DNA from: Clostridia bacterium
GTDB lineage: Bacteria > Bacillota > Clostridia > Oscillospirales > Acutalibacteraceae
DNA length: 64,000 nucleotides
Reading direction: 5' to 3'
Assembly (NCBI GenBank): GCA_017560255.1
Contig: JAFYOI010000055.1
Coordinates: 1 to 64,000, forward strand
This document shows, piece after piece, positions 36,417 through 43,479 of this stretch. The position numbers and the translations under genes are program-made. Below the pieces are notes generated by a model that did not search any database, was not told the DNA's origin, and saw nothing but the letters and a program-made list of their open reading frames with translations. Numbering within the stretch: the stretch's first letter is position 1; each line of letters starts with the position of its first letter.

Positions 36417-36445
36417 TTGACTTTTGTGTCGAAGAGGTATATACT
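36417..36445 (+). promoter_or_regulatory. Sigma-A promoter of the sortase locus
   Basis: TTGACT (36417-36422) and TATACT (36440-36445) are separated by 17 bases, 62 bases ahead of the first gene. Confidence 0.65.
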
Positions 36446-36507
36446 ATATACGGCTTTATTACAAGTATGGGCAACAAGTAAAATTTTAGAATGGATGATG
36501 ATTAAGA

Positions 36508-37095
36508 ATGAAAAAGTTTTTTGTAGCCGTTTTGGCGGTTGTACTCATGATGACTATGTTCGTTGGCTCTGCTTCAGCGGCAACAAAGGCTGACTTGGTT
36601 AACAAGATTAAGAACGACTCAATCATTGGTAACTATGAGCATATCGTGAACATTGTTGTAAATCAGATGGACAATTTTAATTTTACTTCTGACGAGTGCG
36701 ACTATCTCCTTGCTAAGTTCGATGAGGCTAAAGCGATTATCGAAGCAGCGGGTGGAGACAAGGGTTCCAGTGCTCACTCCTATGACCCCGTAACTATTGA
36801 ACAGATTGTCGATATCGTAGCAGATGTTGTTACAACTCTTGGTTACACTTACGAGTACCTTCCGTCACAGAATCCTTTGCACACAGGTGACGATGTTTTC
36901 CGTGTTTATGATGCAGATGGCATCATCGTTTTTGAGTTCGACGGTGACTACGTTAAGCACACAGGCGGCGAGGTTGCTTCTGACAACGGAAAGATTATGG
37001 CGGGTGCTGCTCTCGGTGGCGGCGTTGTAGTTTTGGCTTTGGCTGTTTTCTTTGCAGTAAGAAGCAGAAAAAACCTTAACGAAACTGAAGCATAA
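36508..37095 (+). CDS. Secreted acidic protein with C-terminal membrane helix, candidate sortase substrate
   Basis: The 195-residue protein has a signal peptide (cut near SASA/ATKA), an acidic helical domain (about 25-80), a short linker and a small beta-rich region (YLPSQNPLHTGDDVFRVYD). It ends in a Gly/Ala/Val helix (about 165-184) and the tail RSRKNLNETEA. That C-terminal layout equals a cell-wall sorting signal, but no LPXTG is present. The best candidate motif is YVKHTGGE just before the helix. A sortase gene follows within nine bases, which strengthens the substrate idea. No family name is recognised. Confidence 0.6.
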   Translation: MKKFFVAVLAVVLMMTMFVGSASAATKADLVNKIKNDSIIGNYEHIVNIVVNQMDNFNFTSDECDYLLAKFDEAKAIIEAAGGDKGSSAHSYDPVTIEQIVDIVADVVTTLGYTYEYLPSQNPLHTGDDVFRVYDADGIIVFEFDGDYVKHTGGEVASDNGKIMAGAALGGGVVVLALAVFFAVRSRKNLNETEA

Positions 37096-37103
37096 TTCGA
37101 GTT

Positions 37104-37871
37104 ATGAATAAAACTGATACAAAACAGAATAACAAAAAAATTATAAGGAGCGGACTCAATTTGAGTCTGCCCTTTATACTGTGTGCAATTGCTCTTTTAC
37201 TGTTTTCTGTCTGGCTGTTTAAGGGCGTAATTGAAACAAACAGTTTCTATAAACTTCTTATGAATGCTTCTGGGCCGGTCATGGAGAATGATTTGTCGTT
37301 TGATAACGGTTTGCATCTTGAAAACGTTGCACCCACACCCGAAGAAACCGACAAAACACTTGAGTCAGAAGATGAAAAAATCGTATCGCCGGAACTTTTG
37401 CCGCTGTTTAAATACGGACAGAGATGGGGTACGTTCAACCTTGACAAATACGAGTATTACGGTCGTCCGATTTATAACTGTGATAATCCGAACGTTTTTG
37501 GTTATGGTGTTGGCAGAGCGCTTTACGGAATGCTTCCGGGACAGGGGCAAAATATCGTTCTTTGCGGCCATTGCGTAAACTCTTTTATTTATCTTGAAAT
37601 GTTAGAAATCGGCGATATAATAAAAATAAAAACCGTTTACGGTGTATATGAATATGAGGTTGTTAAGACGGTTGTTTTTGAGCCCGATGATACACGCTAT
37701 GTTTTGGCGCAGTATGATGAGGAAATGCTTACCTGTTACACTTGTTATCCCTATCTTACAACTATGCCAAGAACGAAGAGATATGCTGTTATATCAAAGA
37801 AAATTTCTGGTCCGGACTATCGTTACAATTCTTCAACGGGCAGATGGCATTTGGTAGGTGAGAGCGAATGA
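37104..37871 (+). CDS. Sortase family transpeptidase
   Basis: The 255-residue protein has one N-terminal helix (about 20-42), an acidic spacer and a sortase domain from about residue 110. Catalytic residues are visible: His in VLCGHCVNSF, Cys in LTCYTCYP, and Arg in MPRTKRYAVI. The His is followed by Cys-Val rather than the usual Arg-Asp or Asn, and a second Cys sits three residues before the catalytic one. Size and lack of a class B insertion suggest class D or E. It lies between the putative substrate and a membrane protein that overlaps its stop codon, so the three work as a unit. Confidence 0.85.
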   Translation: MNKTDTKQNNKKIIRSGLNLSLPFILCAIALLLFSVWLFKGVIETNSFYKLLMNASGPVMENDLSFDNGLHLENVAPTPEETDKTLESEDEKIVSPELLPLFKYGQRWGTFNLDKYEYYGRPIYNCDNPNVFGYGVGRALYGMLPGQGQNIVLCGHCVNSFIYLEMLEIGDIIKIKTVYGVYEYEVVKTVVFEPDDTRYVLAQYDEEMLTCYTCYPYLTTMPRTKRYAVISKKISGPDYRYNSSTGRWHLVGESE

Positions 37872-38803
37872 AGAAGGTTATAAAGAGTATAGTCAGCGTT
37901 ATTTTGTCGGTGCTGATTTGTCTTTCGGCATTCGTCACAATAGCAACGGCTATCATTAAATTTAAAATATCAAATATTGAGCATTATGTTGAATCCGTTA
38001 TTGATGACAAACATATTGATGCTTTGTATGAAGACATCAGATACAGCGTAGGCACAGTGTGCGAAAATCTTGAGGTTGACCGTGATACTGTTATGACATT
38101 TGTTAATAAGGAAGAAATCAAAAGCATTTCACAGAACAATTTCAGAGCACTTTTTCACAGCGTTCTTGATGGAACACCTCTTAGTTATAAGCGTTTTGAT
38201 AACGTAGCGATGAAAGATGAAATTTATCGTGAACTTGAGGCGTTTGCAAATGAAGTTGGTATTGTAGAAGAGGATCTGAATCATGCAACCGACGTTACTT
38301 ATGAATACATTGTTGATGAGATAAATAAATCTCTTATATATTTTACACAGGACGACGTAAATATGGTTGGTTTTGTGTCAGAGGTTCAGATACTGGATTT
38401 TGCAATAAACGATTCATTTTATGTAATGCTTGCGGTTTTCATTGTACTTTGCATTCTGAAAGTTTTGCTCGGCAGAAAACAGAGTTTAAGAACGATGTAC
38501 AATGTTGCTTTTATGAGTTGGCTTGCAAGTGCTTGCTGGTTTTTCCCTGTATTGATTATTAAAATTGTTGACGTTGCAGCAGGAATAATCCTTGCACACG
38601 GCGGATTTAAAATCTATGTTCAAAACCTTATAAACGTTGTTATAGATGGATTTTTTTATGTTTCATTGTTTGCCTTTATTTTAACTACGATTTTGGTTAT
38701 CACTATGATTGTGCTTGTTATTATACAGATTGCAAGAAGAACGAAAACATCTTTAAAAACTGATGATACAGACGTCACCTGCGAAAGCGAACAAACAGCA
38801 TAA
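37868..38803 (+). CDS. Multi-pass membrane protein of the sortase locus
   Basis: The ATG overlaps the sortase stop (ATGA). The 311-residue protein has one N-terminal helix (about 5-28), an acidic extracellular domain of about 150 residues rich in helices, then three C-terminal helices (about 185-205, 212-240, 258-290) and a polar tail. I do not recognise the family. Translational coupling with the sortase suggests a role in presenting or anchoring the substrate; that is inference. Confidence 0.6.
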   Translation: MKKVIKSIVSVILSVLICLSAFVTIATAIIKFKISNIEHYVESVIDDKHIDALYEDIRYSVGTVCENLEVDRDTVMTFVNKEEIKSISQNNFRALFHSVLDGTPLSYKRFDNVAMKDEIYRELEAFANEVGIVEEDLNHATDVTYEYIVDEINKSLIYFTQDDVNMVGFVSEVQILDFAINDSFYVMLAVFIVLCILKVLLGRKQSLRTMYNVAFMSWLASACWFFPVLIIKIVDVAAGIILAHGGFKIYVQNLINVVIDGFFYVSLFAFILTTILVITMIVLVIIQIARRTKTSLKTDDTDVTCESEQTA

Positions 38804-38808
38804 AAAAT

Positions 38809-38840
38809 AAAGCCTTGTGGAAAATTTCCACAAGGCTTTT
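38809..38840. terminator. Bidirectional terminator between the sortase locus and the 6S RNA candidate
   Basis: The stem AAAGCCTTGTGGAAA pairs with TTTCCACAAGGCTTT (38809-38823 with 38825-38839; the innermost bases must open as the loop). T-rich flanks occur on both sides, so it can end both the sortase operon and the minus-strand RNA. Confidence 0.8.
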
Positions 38841-38845
38841 GCTTT

Positions 38846-39012
38846 TCAAGAAACCCCACCATGCCGTATCACGGATAATGATAACCTGCTAATTGCAGGT
38901 GGGTGCGTCCTCGTAACTTTGGCTCCCTTCGTCCGACAATAAGTCGGGAGGTCTGCATTCCCCATTACAAGAGATTTAGCTCCCTTAATAAAGAACGTTG
39001 GGTTATAGAACC
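38846..39012 (-). ncRNA. ssrS: 6S RNA candidate
   Basis: The gap between a terminator and the DUF1292 gene has no reading frame but strong structure. On the minus strand it reads CTCCCGACTTATTGTCGG..GAAGGGAG, then TTACGAGGACGCACCCACCT, a GCAGGT hairpin, and GATACGGCATGGTGGGGTTT. This order parallels the 3' half of Escherichia coli 6S RNA (CGACGACACATTCACCTTG ... GCGGCGGCATCTCGGAG), and the 5' AACCC region can pair with the 3' GGGGTT. 6S RNA sequesters sigma-A RNA polymerase in stationary phase. The ends are approximate and no clear promoter was found. Confidence 0.7.
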
Positions 39013-39041
39013 CGTTACTCGAACACAGCAGGGTATATGAA

Positions 39042-39527: not shown

Positions 39528-39791
39528 ATGAAAATAAAGGATGGTTACCTCATTCGTGAGATTGCTGGCGCGTACGTTGTAGTGCCGGCAGGGGAACAGG
39601 TCGTTGAATTTAACGGGCTTATGACGCTCAATGAAACAGCGGCGTTTATCTGGAATATCTTTGTTGATGGCGCAGATGAGGATGCGGTTGTTGCGAAAAT
39701 GCTTGATGAATATGATGTTGATGAAGAAAAGGCAAGAGAGGATGTAAAAAAAGTTATAGAGTTACTAAAATCCTATAACGTGTTTGAATAA
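39528..39791 (+). CDS. PqqD family (RiPP recognition element-like) protein
   Basis: At 87 residues it is a single PqqD-like winged-helix domain: YLIREIAGAYVVVPAG strands, then FNGLMTLNETAAFIWNIFVDG and a C-terminal helix bundle (VVAKMLDEYDVDEEKAREDV). Related domains bind RiPP precursor peptides and hand them to modifying enzymes. No radical SAM enzyme, precursor peptide or cyclase is near. GGAG lies nine bases before the ATG. It is followed by a lipoprotein and a two-component system, with which it may be co-transcribed. Confidence 0.82.
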   Translation: MKIKDGYLIREIAGAYVVVPAGEQVVEFNGLMTLNETAAFIWNIFVDGADEDAVVAKMLDEYDVDEEKAREDVKKVIELLKSYNVFE

Positions 39792-39837: not shown

Positions 39838-41229
39838 ATGTTCGGTAAATCCAAATTTTACTCTGTAATACTTTTGACTATATGCGTGATAGGCTTTATT
39901 TTCAGTGGATGTGATGCCTTGGATGGATTTTCAAGTAAAGGCATACAAGAACTTTTGCAGCCGCCCGTGTCTTCCGAAGAAAATGCGAAGATAAAAGAGG
40001 CGCTTGAGAAACATGTGAGCGGTTCTTTCGTCCTTATGTCACCAACATCAGGTGACTATCGCTCTGCCTACGTTGTGCAGGATCTTGACCGTGATATGTC
40101 AAATGAGGCTATTGTTTTTTATAAACAGAGAGCAAATATGTTTCTTGGATTCATTGATAAAAACACAGAAAACGACTCTTGGGTAACTAAACAGGTTATT
40201 CAAAGTGAAGCAAGCGATATATACAGCATTAGTTTCTGTGACTTTGATAATGATTCCGTAAAAGAAATTCTCGTTATGTGGGAACGTAATGACAGTCAGA
40301 CTATGAGACTGCTTGAAGTCTACAAAGTTGTTAGCGGAGATACAATCCATTTGGTCGGCAGTGTTGAATGTAGCGAAGCACTTGTTTTGGACTTGATACC
40401 GTCAAATGATGATTTGGAGATTGTGACGTTGACACTTGAAACAATTGTTGGTGTTTCTTCTCAATCGATTGCACGATTATATACGTATGACACAGATGCT
40501 GAAGATATTGAATTTGAAAGTGGTATTGTTCTTAACAACTTGGCAATAGGATATGCGAAGATTTCTGCTGCGCCCGAAGCGGAAGGCTACGGCCAGGTCT
40601 GTCGTGCGCGTGTGGTGGTTGATAGTTATTGCCGTGACAGTCAAAGTATGATGACTGAAATGATTTATTGGAGTCAGAATGATAACGACAGCAGTGGCTC
40701 GCTTGCACTACATAAGTGGGGGACTTTTGAAAGAGTAAGTACGGTAACATCAATGGATGTCAATAATGATGGTTTGATTGATATTCCGCAACTGATAGAA
40801 TTTGCCAATACAAATGCGGTTGGTATAACTGATAATAAATACATAACCGATAAACATATTGTTGCATGGACTTCGTACGATTTTGAACCACAACAAAGGA
40901 CGATTAAATACACTGTTGTGAATCCCGACTTTAACTATATGATGGTTATTCCGAAAGAATGGATTGATGATGCTGCTCTTATAGAAAATGATCTGGATAA
41001 TGAATATATCATTTACAAATGGGACAAAGAGAAACAGAATCCCTCGGAAATTTATATGGCATCTAAGGTTTTTACCTTATCTGAATGGACGGATTATGAA
41101 GAAAAAAACAAGGATAATGAGGAAAAATATCGTCTTGTAAAGGTTTATGGTTCATTAGTTTACGCGGTTCGTTTTGGTAAAATCGGATATCCCGGATACT
41201 ATCAGACGGCGATAGAAACCATTAATTAA
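39838..41229 (+). CDS. Lipoprotein with FG-GAP/VCBS-like repeats
   Basis: The lipobox FSGC at the end of the signal peptide gives a lipid-anchored protein of about 440 residues. Several Asp-rich loops of the D-x-D-x-D/N-x-x-x-E/D-I type occur (QDLDRDMSNEAIV, CDFDNDSVKEILV, DVNNDGLIDIPQL). They suggest a calcium-binding beta-propeller like integrin FG-GAP domains. A C-terminal segment resembles PsbP-like strands (NYMMVIPKEWIDD). GGAGGG precedes the ATG. It lies directly before a response regulator and kinase and could be part of that sensory unit. Confidence 0.7.
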   Translation: MFGKSKFYSVILLTICVIGFIFSGCDALDGFSSKGIQELLQPPVSSEENAKIKEALEKHVSGSFVLMSPTSGDYRSAYVVQDLDRDMSNEAIVFYKQRANMFLGFIDKNTENDSWVTKQVIQSEASDIYSISFCDFDNDSVKEILVMWERNDSQTMRLLEVYKVVSGDTIHLVGSVECSEALVLDLIPSNDDLEIVTLTLETIVGVSSQSIARLYTYDTDAEDIEFESGIVLNNLAIGYAKISAAPEAEGYGQVCRARVVVDSYCRDSQSMMTEMIYWSQNDNDSSGSLALHKWGTFERVSTVTSMDVNNDGLIDIPQLIEFANTNAVGITDNKYITDKHIVAWTSYDFEPQQRTIKYTVVNPDFNYMMVIPKEWIDDAALIENDLDNEYIIYKWDKEKQNPSEIYMASKVFTLSEWTDYEEKNKDNEEKYRLVKVYGSLVYAVRFGKIGYPGYYQTAIETIN

Positions 41230-41249
41230 ACAGTTCGGAGTGATACGTT

Positions 41250-41954
41250 GTGAAAAAAATACTTGTCGTTGAAGATGAACGCTCTATACGTGAGTTTATT
41301 GTAATAAATCTTGTGCATAATGGTTACAAGACTTTTGAAGCGGCAAATGGTGTTGAGGCTCTTGAGATTTATAATAATAACACGGATATTGATATTGTTC
41401 TTTGCGACGTTATGATGCCCGAAATGGATGGTGTGACGTTAAGCAAGATACTCAGAGAGAAAAATCGCACTCTTGGAATTGTTATGCTGACCGCCAAAAC
41501 ACAGGAAGAAGATAAAATTACAGGACTTTTTGCCGGTGCAGATGATTATATAACAAAACCGTTTTCTCCGTCCGAACTTATGGCGCGACTTGAAGCAATA
41601 TACAGACGTGTAAGCGTAAGTCGTGAATCATTAACTGATGATAAGAAATCTAACTTGATTAAGCAAGGATGCTTTACTCTTAATAAAATAGATCGAACGT
41701 TTATGAAGAACAGAGAACGCATTGAGTTGACTCAGGTTGAATTTCAGATTATGTATCTCTTCTTTGAACATAAAGGAGAAACACTTAAACGTTCCTTCAT
41801 TCTTGAAAAAATATGGGGAGATAATTATTACGGCGATGAGAAAGTTGTTGATGTAAACATTCGAAGGCTCAGATTGAAGATTGAGGACGACCCGAATGAG
41901 TGTCGTCATCTAACAACCGTCTGGGGACTTGGCTACTGCTGGATTGCTGATTAA
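41250..41954 (+). CDS. OmpR-family response regulator
   Basis: The GTG start yields ILVVEDERSIREFI with the acidic pocket, the phospho-acceptor Asp in VLCDVMMPEMDG (about residue 52), Thr in MLTAKT and Lys in YITKPFSP. Residues about 130-230 form a winged helix (RTFMKNRERIELTQVEFQIM, VVDVNIRRLRLKIE). The 234-residue length is typical. It is followed by its sensor kinase 40 bases downstream. Targets are unknown. Confidence 0.93.
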   Translation: MKKILVVEDERSIREFIVINLVHNGYKTFEAANGVEALEIYNNNTDIDIVLCDVMMPEMDGVTLSKILREKNRTLGIVMLTAKTQEEDKITGLFAGADDYITKPFSPSELMARLEAIYRRVSVSRESLTDDKKSNLIKQGCFTLNKIDRTFMKNRERIELTQVEFQIMYLFFEHKGETLKRSFILEKIWGDNYYGDEKVVDVNIRRLRLKIEDDPNECRHLTTVWGLGYCWIAD

Positions 41955-41994
41955 GTAATTTTGTTTAAATTCGCTTAAAGGGGGTGCAGTATAT

Positions 41995-43479
41995 TTGTTT
42001 TTCAAAGGAATAACAAAGAGATGGTTTGTCAATATCTTTTTGGTTGTATTTTTGCTTTTAACCGTAATTGCGGTATGTGGTTGCATAGTTTTTAATAACT
42101 ATTATTACAACGGTGTGCGCGATGAGTTGATCGTTAGCGCTGAAGAAGTTGTATCAGATTTAATGCCATATACCGATTCCGCCACAAAGTTTCAAATCGG
42201 CGCGGTAGAAATTGCTCAGTCGTTTGAATACGCTCATTATATGGAGTTGAGAATAGCGGATAAATACGGCGATGTTATTGCAACATCTTCCGGATTTTCC
42301 GTACGCACTGAGGCAGATTTAACTGTTTCCGATCAGGCAAACGAATATATACGTGCATCTGAAGCGGGGGATTATTCAAGCACCTGGAAAGGTGAACTTT
42401 CTACGGGAGAATCCGTGATGGTGTATACAAAGATTATAAAAGACGGGTCATCTATTGAATCGGGCGAGGTTGCTCGGGCTGAAGATAATAGTATTGAAGT
42501 CGGAGTTATACGTTTGATGGTTTCTCTTGAAAAGATTGAAGACAGAATATTGCAGAGTTGTCTTGCAGTGGTTTTGGCTTGTGTTGCTGTTTTGGCTATT
42601 TCTCTCATTTCAAGTATATACTTTATTCGTTCGATCGTTAGACCTATACGAGACGTTGAGGTTAAGACTTCGCTAATTGCTCAAGGTAATTTTGATGTGC
42701 GAATAAGTAAATCCTATGATGATGAGATAGGAGAATTGAGTGATTCAATCAACAATATGGCGAGCGAACTGAGCGAAACGGACAGAATAAAGAACGAATT
42801 TATTTCTACCGTTTCTCACGAATTGAGAACTCCGCTTACCGCAATCAAAGGTTGGGGTGAAACTCTCTTATCGTTGGGTGTCGACAATCCCGAACTTACC
42901 GAGAGGGGATTGCAGGTGATGGTTGAAGAAACCAATCGTTTGACACAGATGGTTGAAGAATTGCTCGGGTTTTCAAAAATTCAAGGTAATCGCTTCAAAA
43001 TGGTGTTCGGGGAAACGGATTTGATTGCTCAACTTAACGAAGCGTTTTATATGTACCGTGAACGCGCAAGACGTGAAGACAAAACAATGTCATATCAGGT
43101 TTCTTGTGAATCCGCTATTGCTGTCGCAGACGGCGGACGTATCAGGCAGGTTTTTGTCAACATTATTGATAACGCGATTAAGTATACGCAGTCGGGCGGG
43201 ATTATTACCGTAACCGCGCGTGTTGAAAATAATTCATTTATTGTTGCTATCAAAGATAGCGGAAAGGGAATCGCAAAAGAAGATTTGCCGTACGTAAGAC
43301 AAAAATTTTATAAGGGTAGAAATTCAATGAGTGGTTCTTCAGGAATCGGTCTTGCGGTTGTAAACGAGATTATAAATCAACATAACGGAAGTTTAAAAAT
43401 TGATAGTGAGGTTAACGTCGGAACGACGGTCAGCATCACTATTCCATTAAATCACAATAAAGATGGAGGGGATAATTAA
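41995..43479 (+). CDS. Sensor histidine kinase
   Basis: The TTG start follows GGGGGTG. The 494-residue protein has a first helix (about 10-32), an extracytoplasmic sensor of about 150 residues, a second helix (about 188-210), a HAMP domain, the H box STVSHELRTPLTAIKGW, N box NIIDNAIKYT and the G boxes DSGKGI and GSSGIGLAVV. The architecture is that of PhoR/ResE-type kinases. The signal is unknown; the upstream lipoprotein could be a partner. The stop overlaps the DUF1385 start by one base, so downstream genes may share the transcript. Confidence 0.93.
   Translation: MFFKGITKRWFVNIFLVVFLLLTVIAVCGCIVFNNYYYNGVRDELIVSAEEVVSDLMPYTDSATKFQIGAVEIAQSFEYAHYMELRIADKYGDVIATSSGFSVRTEADLTVSDQANEYIRASEAGDYSSTWKGELSTGESVMVYTKIIKDGSSIESGEVARAEDNSIEVGVIRLMVSLEKIEDRILQSCLAVVLACVAVLAISLISSIYFIRSIVRPIRDVEVKTSLIAQGNFDVRISKSYDDEIGELSDSINNMASELSETDRIKNEFISTVSHELRTPLTAIKGWGETLLSLGVDNPELTERGLQVMVEETNRLTQMVEELLGFSKIQGNRFKMVFGETDLIAQLNEAFYMYRERARREDKTMSYQVSCESAIAVADGGRIRQVFVNIIDNAIKYTQSGGIITVTARVENNSFIVAIKDSGKGIAKEDLPYVRQKFYKGRNSMSGSSGIGLAVVNEIINQHNGSLKIDSEVNVGTTVSITIPLNHNKDGGDN

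Follow-up and report, generated by a model that had tools for sequence, protein, structure and literature searches.

A three-gene sortase cassette was analysed in the genome of a Clostridia bacterium of the family Acutalibacteraceae (Oscillospirales), within a stretch of 64,000 nucleotides (positions 1 to 64,000 of contig JAFYOI010000055.1, GenBank assembly GCA_017560255.1; hereafter the window). The cassette encodes, on the same strand and in this order, a secreted acidic protein, a class-D-like sortase and a four-helix membrane protein. It is read, with a probability of roughly 0.7, as a dedicated one-enzyme, one-substrate sorting system that recognises V-K-H-T-G and has the membrane protein as its partner. 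A preliminary description of the window, made from the sequence alone, had proposed a dedicated system with a new motif and an accessory membrane protein, and this proposal is supported by conservation of the motif and by the co-occurrence of all three genes in 75 of 80 loci. The substrate gene (36508..37095, + strand; 195 aa) was delimited by reading of the open reading frame and alignment of relatives, the sortase gene (37104..37871, + strand; 255 aa with a single N-terminal hydrophobic helix) by its match to PF04203, and the membrane-protein gene (37868..38803, + strand; with a modelled extracytoplasmic helical cap and a putative Lit-like fold) by structural modelling followed by fold and profile comparison. 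The substrate stop and the sortase start are separated by 8 nt, and the sortase TGA and the membrane-protein ATG overlap (ATGA); three genes, a gap of about nine bases and a stop overlap had been described before, and all were found in place.

The sorting motif, V149-K-H-T-G153 (36952..36966, + strand), was predicted from the alignment of relatives. The LPXTG-type pentapeptide with Pro at position 2 is absent from the window substrate (VKHTG), and the LPXTG-type layout of T-G followed by a hydrophobic helix and a basic tail is present. The absence of LPXTG had been pointed out before, with KHTGGE as the candidate motif, and KHTGGE does stand before the helix. Alignment of substrate C-termini, the check proposed at that stage, confirmed a conserved motif before the helix but moved its core from HTGG to [VIL]-K-x-T-G; HTGG was rejected because neither its His nor its second Gly is conserved, whereas K-x-T-G is. 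In an alignment of 14 substrates the sole invariant residue was the Thr of V-K-H-T-G, and in 77 relatives T152 (95%) was the most conserved residue of the substrate, with G153 at 83% and K150 at 81%. In 56 of the 77 substrates the C-terminal helix is directly preceded by the pattern K.T[GDN], compared to 4.2 expected from shuffles and 1.3 expected from its density elsewhere in the substrates. Motif and sortase residue 127 were tabulated from alignments for 94 cassettes, with nine motifs placed by eye. The residue preceding the Lys position was I, V or L in 82 of these, position 2 was K in 69 and R in 4 (Lys/Arg in 73), and the residue following Thr was G in 76; Pro occupied position 2 in only two (loci L169 and L171, both LPFTG). 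When the window's own genome was searched with a profile of the tail, the cassette substrate was matched at E 6e-7 and the next match stood at 0.08, which argues for a dedicated enzyme-substrate pair here; further weak matches were obtained in some other genomes.

Recurrence of the cassette was examined at two scales. Within the same family, the substrate gave 15 matches in 300 genomes and the membrane protein 11 matches in 150 genomes; the strong matches were mostly adjacent with a sortase in between, and their gene neighbourhoods differed. A wide scan of 84,980 species was run with a profile from nine cassette sortases, keyed only on the stretch [END][TQM][LFV]x[LMC]YTCYP, and the 80-locus counts refer to the best 80 of the 164 related loci. 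All three genes were annotated by hidden Markov models in 75 of the 80, in varied genomic neighbourhoods, and two of the remaining five are truncated by contig ends; the same gene order in so many loci indicates that the arrangement is more than chance. Substrate homologues without a sortase had been named in advance as evidence that would count against a dedicated system; the sortase and membrane protein accompany the substrate in these 75 loci, and the substrate homologues found without a sortase are remote ones (L181 and L182, below). The hosts are mostly Lachnospiraceae, Oscillospiraceae and other Clostridia, with isolates including Lachnospira multipara, Diplocloster and Thomasclavelia saccharogumia, so that the cassette, compact and self-contained, is scattered over many gut and environmental Clostridia. 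Complete, unannotated cassettes were also seen on two faecal contigs labelled 'Bacteriophage sp.' (MT836157.1 and MT837175.1; L239 and L240), which are probably bacterial sequence. In another locus a second cassette-type sortase adjoins the cassette on the opposite strand (L095:5629-6300), with no neighbouring substrate seen.

Natural fusions provide independent evidence that the parts of the cassette work together. Substrate and sortase form one polypeptide in five loci (L091, L092, L108, L097 and L188), and these fusions retain IKNTG, IKKTG or MTYTG ahead of the first internal helix; such proteins could sort in cis. In one further locus, L094, the membrane protein is fused to the sortase.

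The enzyme is a member of the sortase superfamily (PF04203, E 2e-13, 50.6 bits against a cut-off of 26.6). Its predicted catalytic residues are His156 (codon 37569..37571, + strand) and Cys214, both invariant in cassette sortases, and Arg226 (codon 37779..37781, + strand), conserved in 99%. The best NCBIfam models are those of class D, NF033746 and NF058671, both under cut-off (75.3/165 and 68.3/140 bits), and the nearest solved structures are 4d70 (Clostridium perfringens SrtD, CpSrtD, which reads LPQTGS) and 2ln7 (Bacillus anthracis SrtC/SrtD, BaSrtC), both of class D. As in 2ln7, Tyr-Pro follows the catalytic Thr-Cys (TCYP), and CpSrtD likewise shares an operon with its substrate (PMC4498605). 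The cassette sortases differ from class D in YTC instead of [TVI]TC, in Asp127, in a catalytic His that is followed by N or V rather than R, in a motif with Lys instead of Pro, and in their regular membrane-protein partner. Alignment with 15 other sortases of the same order gave a similar picture: N or V after His where the others have R, a distinguishing T177-x-Y179-G180, and Tyr212 (Tyr212-Thr213-Cys214, 37737..37745, + strand, replacing the usual [VI]TC) where the others have mostly V or I. In a tree without class D references the cassette sortases stood apart from the 23 other sortases of the order with support of 98/100; once class D rows were added, a single cassette clade was neither established nor rejected (approximately unbiased test, p-AU 0.44). 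A clean clade that leaves out class D is therefore not supported, and the name class-D-like sortase lineage is used here. Class E (LAxTG) offers a precedent for loss of the motif Pro (PMC13257024), but its motif has Ala where the cassette has Lys, and its profile NF033747 matched at E 3e-6 compared to 4e-21 for class D. The unusual Cys residues remarked on in the preliminary description (GHCV and CYTC) are present in the window sortase and are not a conserved feature, only C214 being invariant. The extra Cys residues C126 (37479-37481), C157 (37572-37574) and C211 (37734-37736) occupy aligned positions near the active site, where relatives have mostly G at 126, N or V at 157 and L or M at 211; being mostly peculiar to the window sortase, they were rejected as a functional feature, and a redox or disulfide effect within this one enzyme is possible.

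Residue 127 is associated with the motif. Asp127 (codon 37482..37484, + strand), the proposed partner of the motif Lys, is present in 88 of 94 cassette sortases and in all 73 whose motif has Lys or Arg at position 2. The six sortases without it (Cys in L037, Thr in L130, Asn in L053, L059 and L103, Ala in L143) all pair with motifs lacking Lys/Arg at that position, with Glu there in L037 and L130. The association has a Fisher p of 7e-5, uncorrected for kinship and with perhaps four independent events behind it; motif placement is uncertain in L143 and in the DAKTD group. None of 27 ordinary sortases has Asp at 127: it is absent from the 23 others of the order (the comparison set of 15 has mostly Thr) and from four plasmid class D sortases, which have T or A and, in three cases, LPNTG, LPQTA or LPNTS in neighbouring genes. 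Residue 127 follows a Gly that aligns with 'GADD' of BaSrtC and 'GST' of CpSrtD. In Staphylococcus aureus SrtA, Ala92 touches the Leu-Pro portion of the motif, and Ile182 is situated in the groove (PMC3019223). We infer that residues 127 and 212 are the counterparts of these two; residue 127 would then lie close to where the groove contacts Pro, and Asp127 is a plausible specificity residue for the motif Lys.

The substrate has a predicted signal peptide without a lipobox Cys (residues 1-25, MKKFFVAVLAVVLMMTMFVGSASAA; 36508..36582, + strand), in which A24 is kept in 88% of relatives. The ecto-domain (36583..36948, + strand) is acidic, with 22 D/E and 7 K/R, and was modelled by AlphaFold2 as helices followed by three strands, with predicted local distance difference test (pLDDT) values mostly of 72-89 for the block. 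A C-terminal hydrophobic helix with a basic tail (RSRK; 36994..37092, + strand) completes a layout common to nearly all relatives. No Pfam or NCBIfam family was found above cut-off for the window substrate, and relatives gave weak, scattered matches only; with the model, which is of moderate quality (pLDDT 74.5), Foldseek returned no match under E 0.6. K85 is invariant only among the window substrate and its seven nearest relatives.

The membrane protein was likewise without a match above cut-off in Pfam or NCBIfam, its relatives giving weak, scattered matches only. Its model is all helical with a pLDDT of 89.8. Lit (lipoprotein intramolecular transacylase, PF07314; structures 7b0o and 7b0p) was not matched by profile in the window protein and was matched in 2 of 85 relatives (best E 0.017), and Foldseek by itself returned nothing under E 0.3 for the model. 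Upon fold realignment the top four rows were all Lit (Z 10.4-11.7, up to 195 of ~215 residues), the next standing at 8.5; the top row had 194 residues aligned at an rmsd of 3.7 A with Z 11.7, a value that can arise by chance for helical proteins. Comparison by hhalign with a Lit alignment built here gave 92.9%, E 3.6e-7 and a score of 53 over the N-terminal 73 columns only, where reversed, shuffled and sortase controls scored 12-26. Both comparisons support a distant kinship in fold to Lit, and neither proves it. The catalytic His dyad of Lit (His85 and His153 in B. cereus; PMC8275575) is absent: the column richest in His, located in basic sequence between helices 2 and 3 of the model, reaches only 46%, and the window protein has no His there, which makes Lit chemistry unlikely. 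The membrane protein further differs from Lit in its length (311 aa compared to ~220), and the cassette contains no lipoprotein.

Gene order, motif, three-gene linkage, fusions and the Lys-Asp association were read from the sequences; on cleavage, the acceptor, the geometry of the subsite and the role of the membrane protein, the following mechanism is proposed. The signal peptide would export the small substrate and the C-terminal helix would hold it in the membrane. The adjacent sortase would recognise V-K-H-T-G and cut between Thr152 and Gly153 via Cys214, assisted by His156 and Arg226, and the Thr would then pass to an amino acceptor, for which the peptidoglycan stem peptide is the likeliest candidate. 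Lys would be read instead of the Pro of LPxTG by a remodelled subsite, of which Asp127 and Tyr212 would be part, and the membrane protein, with a putative, distantly Lit-like fold and without the Lit histidines, may serve the sortase as scaffold, gate or acceptor-presenting partner.

Several observations weigh against this mechanism. The substrate of L034 (L034:4768-5289, on the same contig as L060) terminates at VKRTGE and lacks the C-terminal helix, and a sortase and membrane protein follow; that of L094 stops after VAKTDVID, also with no helix. In L043 and L044 (two genomes of one genus) the membrane protein stands beside only a short peptide resembling the N-terminal helix of the sortase (L043:3855-4091, L044:4540-4700), the catalytic domain being missing. 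Asp127 is also kept in 15 cassettes without a motif Lys/Arg, including both with LPFTG; strict Lys-Asp exclusivity was rejected on this ground, and Asp127 is taken as a family trait that is compatible with Lys reading and does not prove it.

The alternative that survives best, though unlikely, is that the sortase cuts at [VIL]KxTG and the product does not end on peptidoglycan, being released by hydrolysis (ectodomain shedding) or moved to the membrane protein or a lipid, so that the cassette would be a module for processing or signalling. In favour of this, nearly every locus has a membrane protein with a large extracytoplasmic cap next to the sortase (the two are fused in L094), the substrate-sortase fusions could act in cis, and L181 and L182, which have no sortase, carry a secreted protein remotely like the substrate directly before a larger membrane protein (484-531 aa). 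Against this, the substrates bear a classical sorting-signal layout, and sortases of the closest class, D, are generally known to join proteins to peptidoglycan (see also PMC4498605). The L181 and L182 proteins, matched weakly by profile (E ~1e-5, backed by adjacency), have neither motif nor C-terminal helix, which fits a coupling of motif and sortase. If their kinship is right, the secreted and membrane proteins may be a pair to which sortase anchoring has been added or from which it has been lost, and motif and sortase would come and go together. In L181, two such pairs adjoin proteins with cell-wall-binding-type repeats. It is also conceivable, though doubtful, that the lineage reads Lys via Asp127 as part of an obligate complex with a Lit-fold membrane protein, this protein being the acceptor or providing it, with a product other than ordinary peptidoglycan anchoring.

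That the enzyme is an ordinary class D sortase of LPxTG type, with KxTG incidental and its true substrates elsewhere, is very improbable: the class D models are its best NCBIfam matches (under cut-off) and LPFTG occurs in two cassettes, but no residue of the adjacent protein is better conserved than the motif Thr, the three genes are linked in 75 of 80 loci, residue 127 is associated with the motif, and other contigs of the window genome encode three more sortases, one with LPETG and PPPTG proteins next to it. Least probable of all is pilus-like polymerisation of the substrate. The presence of a dedicated sortase adjoining its substrate, as in pilus loci, speaks for it; against it, the substrate consists of a single small domain, the best-conserved Lys apart from those of signal peptide, motif and tail (K35) is shared by only 45% of the 77 relatives, and the cassette sortase stands apart from the other sortases of the order in the tree.

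The cassette appears to be a self-contained transcription unit, bounded by a promoter-like site (TTGACT-17 nt-TATACT, 36417..36445, + strand) and a strong predicted intrinsic terminator (38809..38839, + strand). The promoter-like site is a consensus match only, and such matches across the region (7 found, 8.2 expected from shuffles) are not above chance. The gene on the upstream side is presumably DNA-ligase-like, judging from its translation. Directly past the terminator lies a 6S RNA gene on the minus strand (38849..39037; Rfam RF00013, 60.6 bits), followed by a gene for a small PqqD-like protein of the peptide chaperone family (39528-39791, E 1e-15). Genes for an FG-GAP lipoprotein, a response regulator and a histidine kinase adjoin the cassette (39838-43479), as they do in another genus of the family (L042:6311-9954).

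Sortase classes A to F, as set out in a 2026 paper, read LPXTG, (N/S/P)PXTG, LPXTA or LAXTG, none with Lys at position 2 (PMC13257024). Searches of the literature at title and abstract level found no description of the cassette motif, and full-text searches, with most subscription literature outside their scope, found no report of IKQTG, VKKTG, IKKTG, VKQTG or KXTG with a sortase. A Lys-reading sortase would, if widespread, extend the known specificity of sortases and, if Lys is indeed what it reads, may provide an orthogonal ligase for protein engineering. The Lys-Asp association lends itself to direct testing as a specificity switch, and the conservation of the membrane partner prompts the question whether certain sortases depend on an accessory protein. 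If the reading given here is true, the cassette is a surface protein system in gut Clostridia that has been missed by LPXTG-based annotation.
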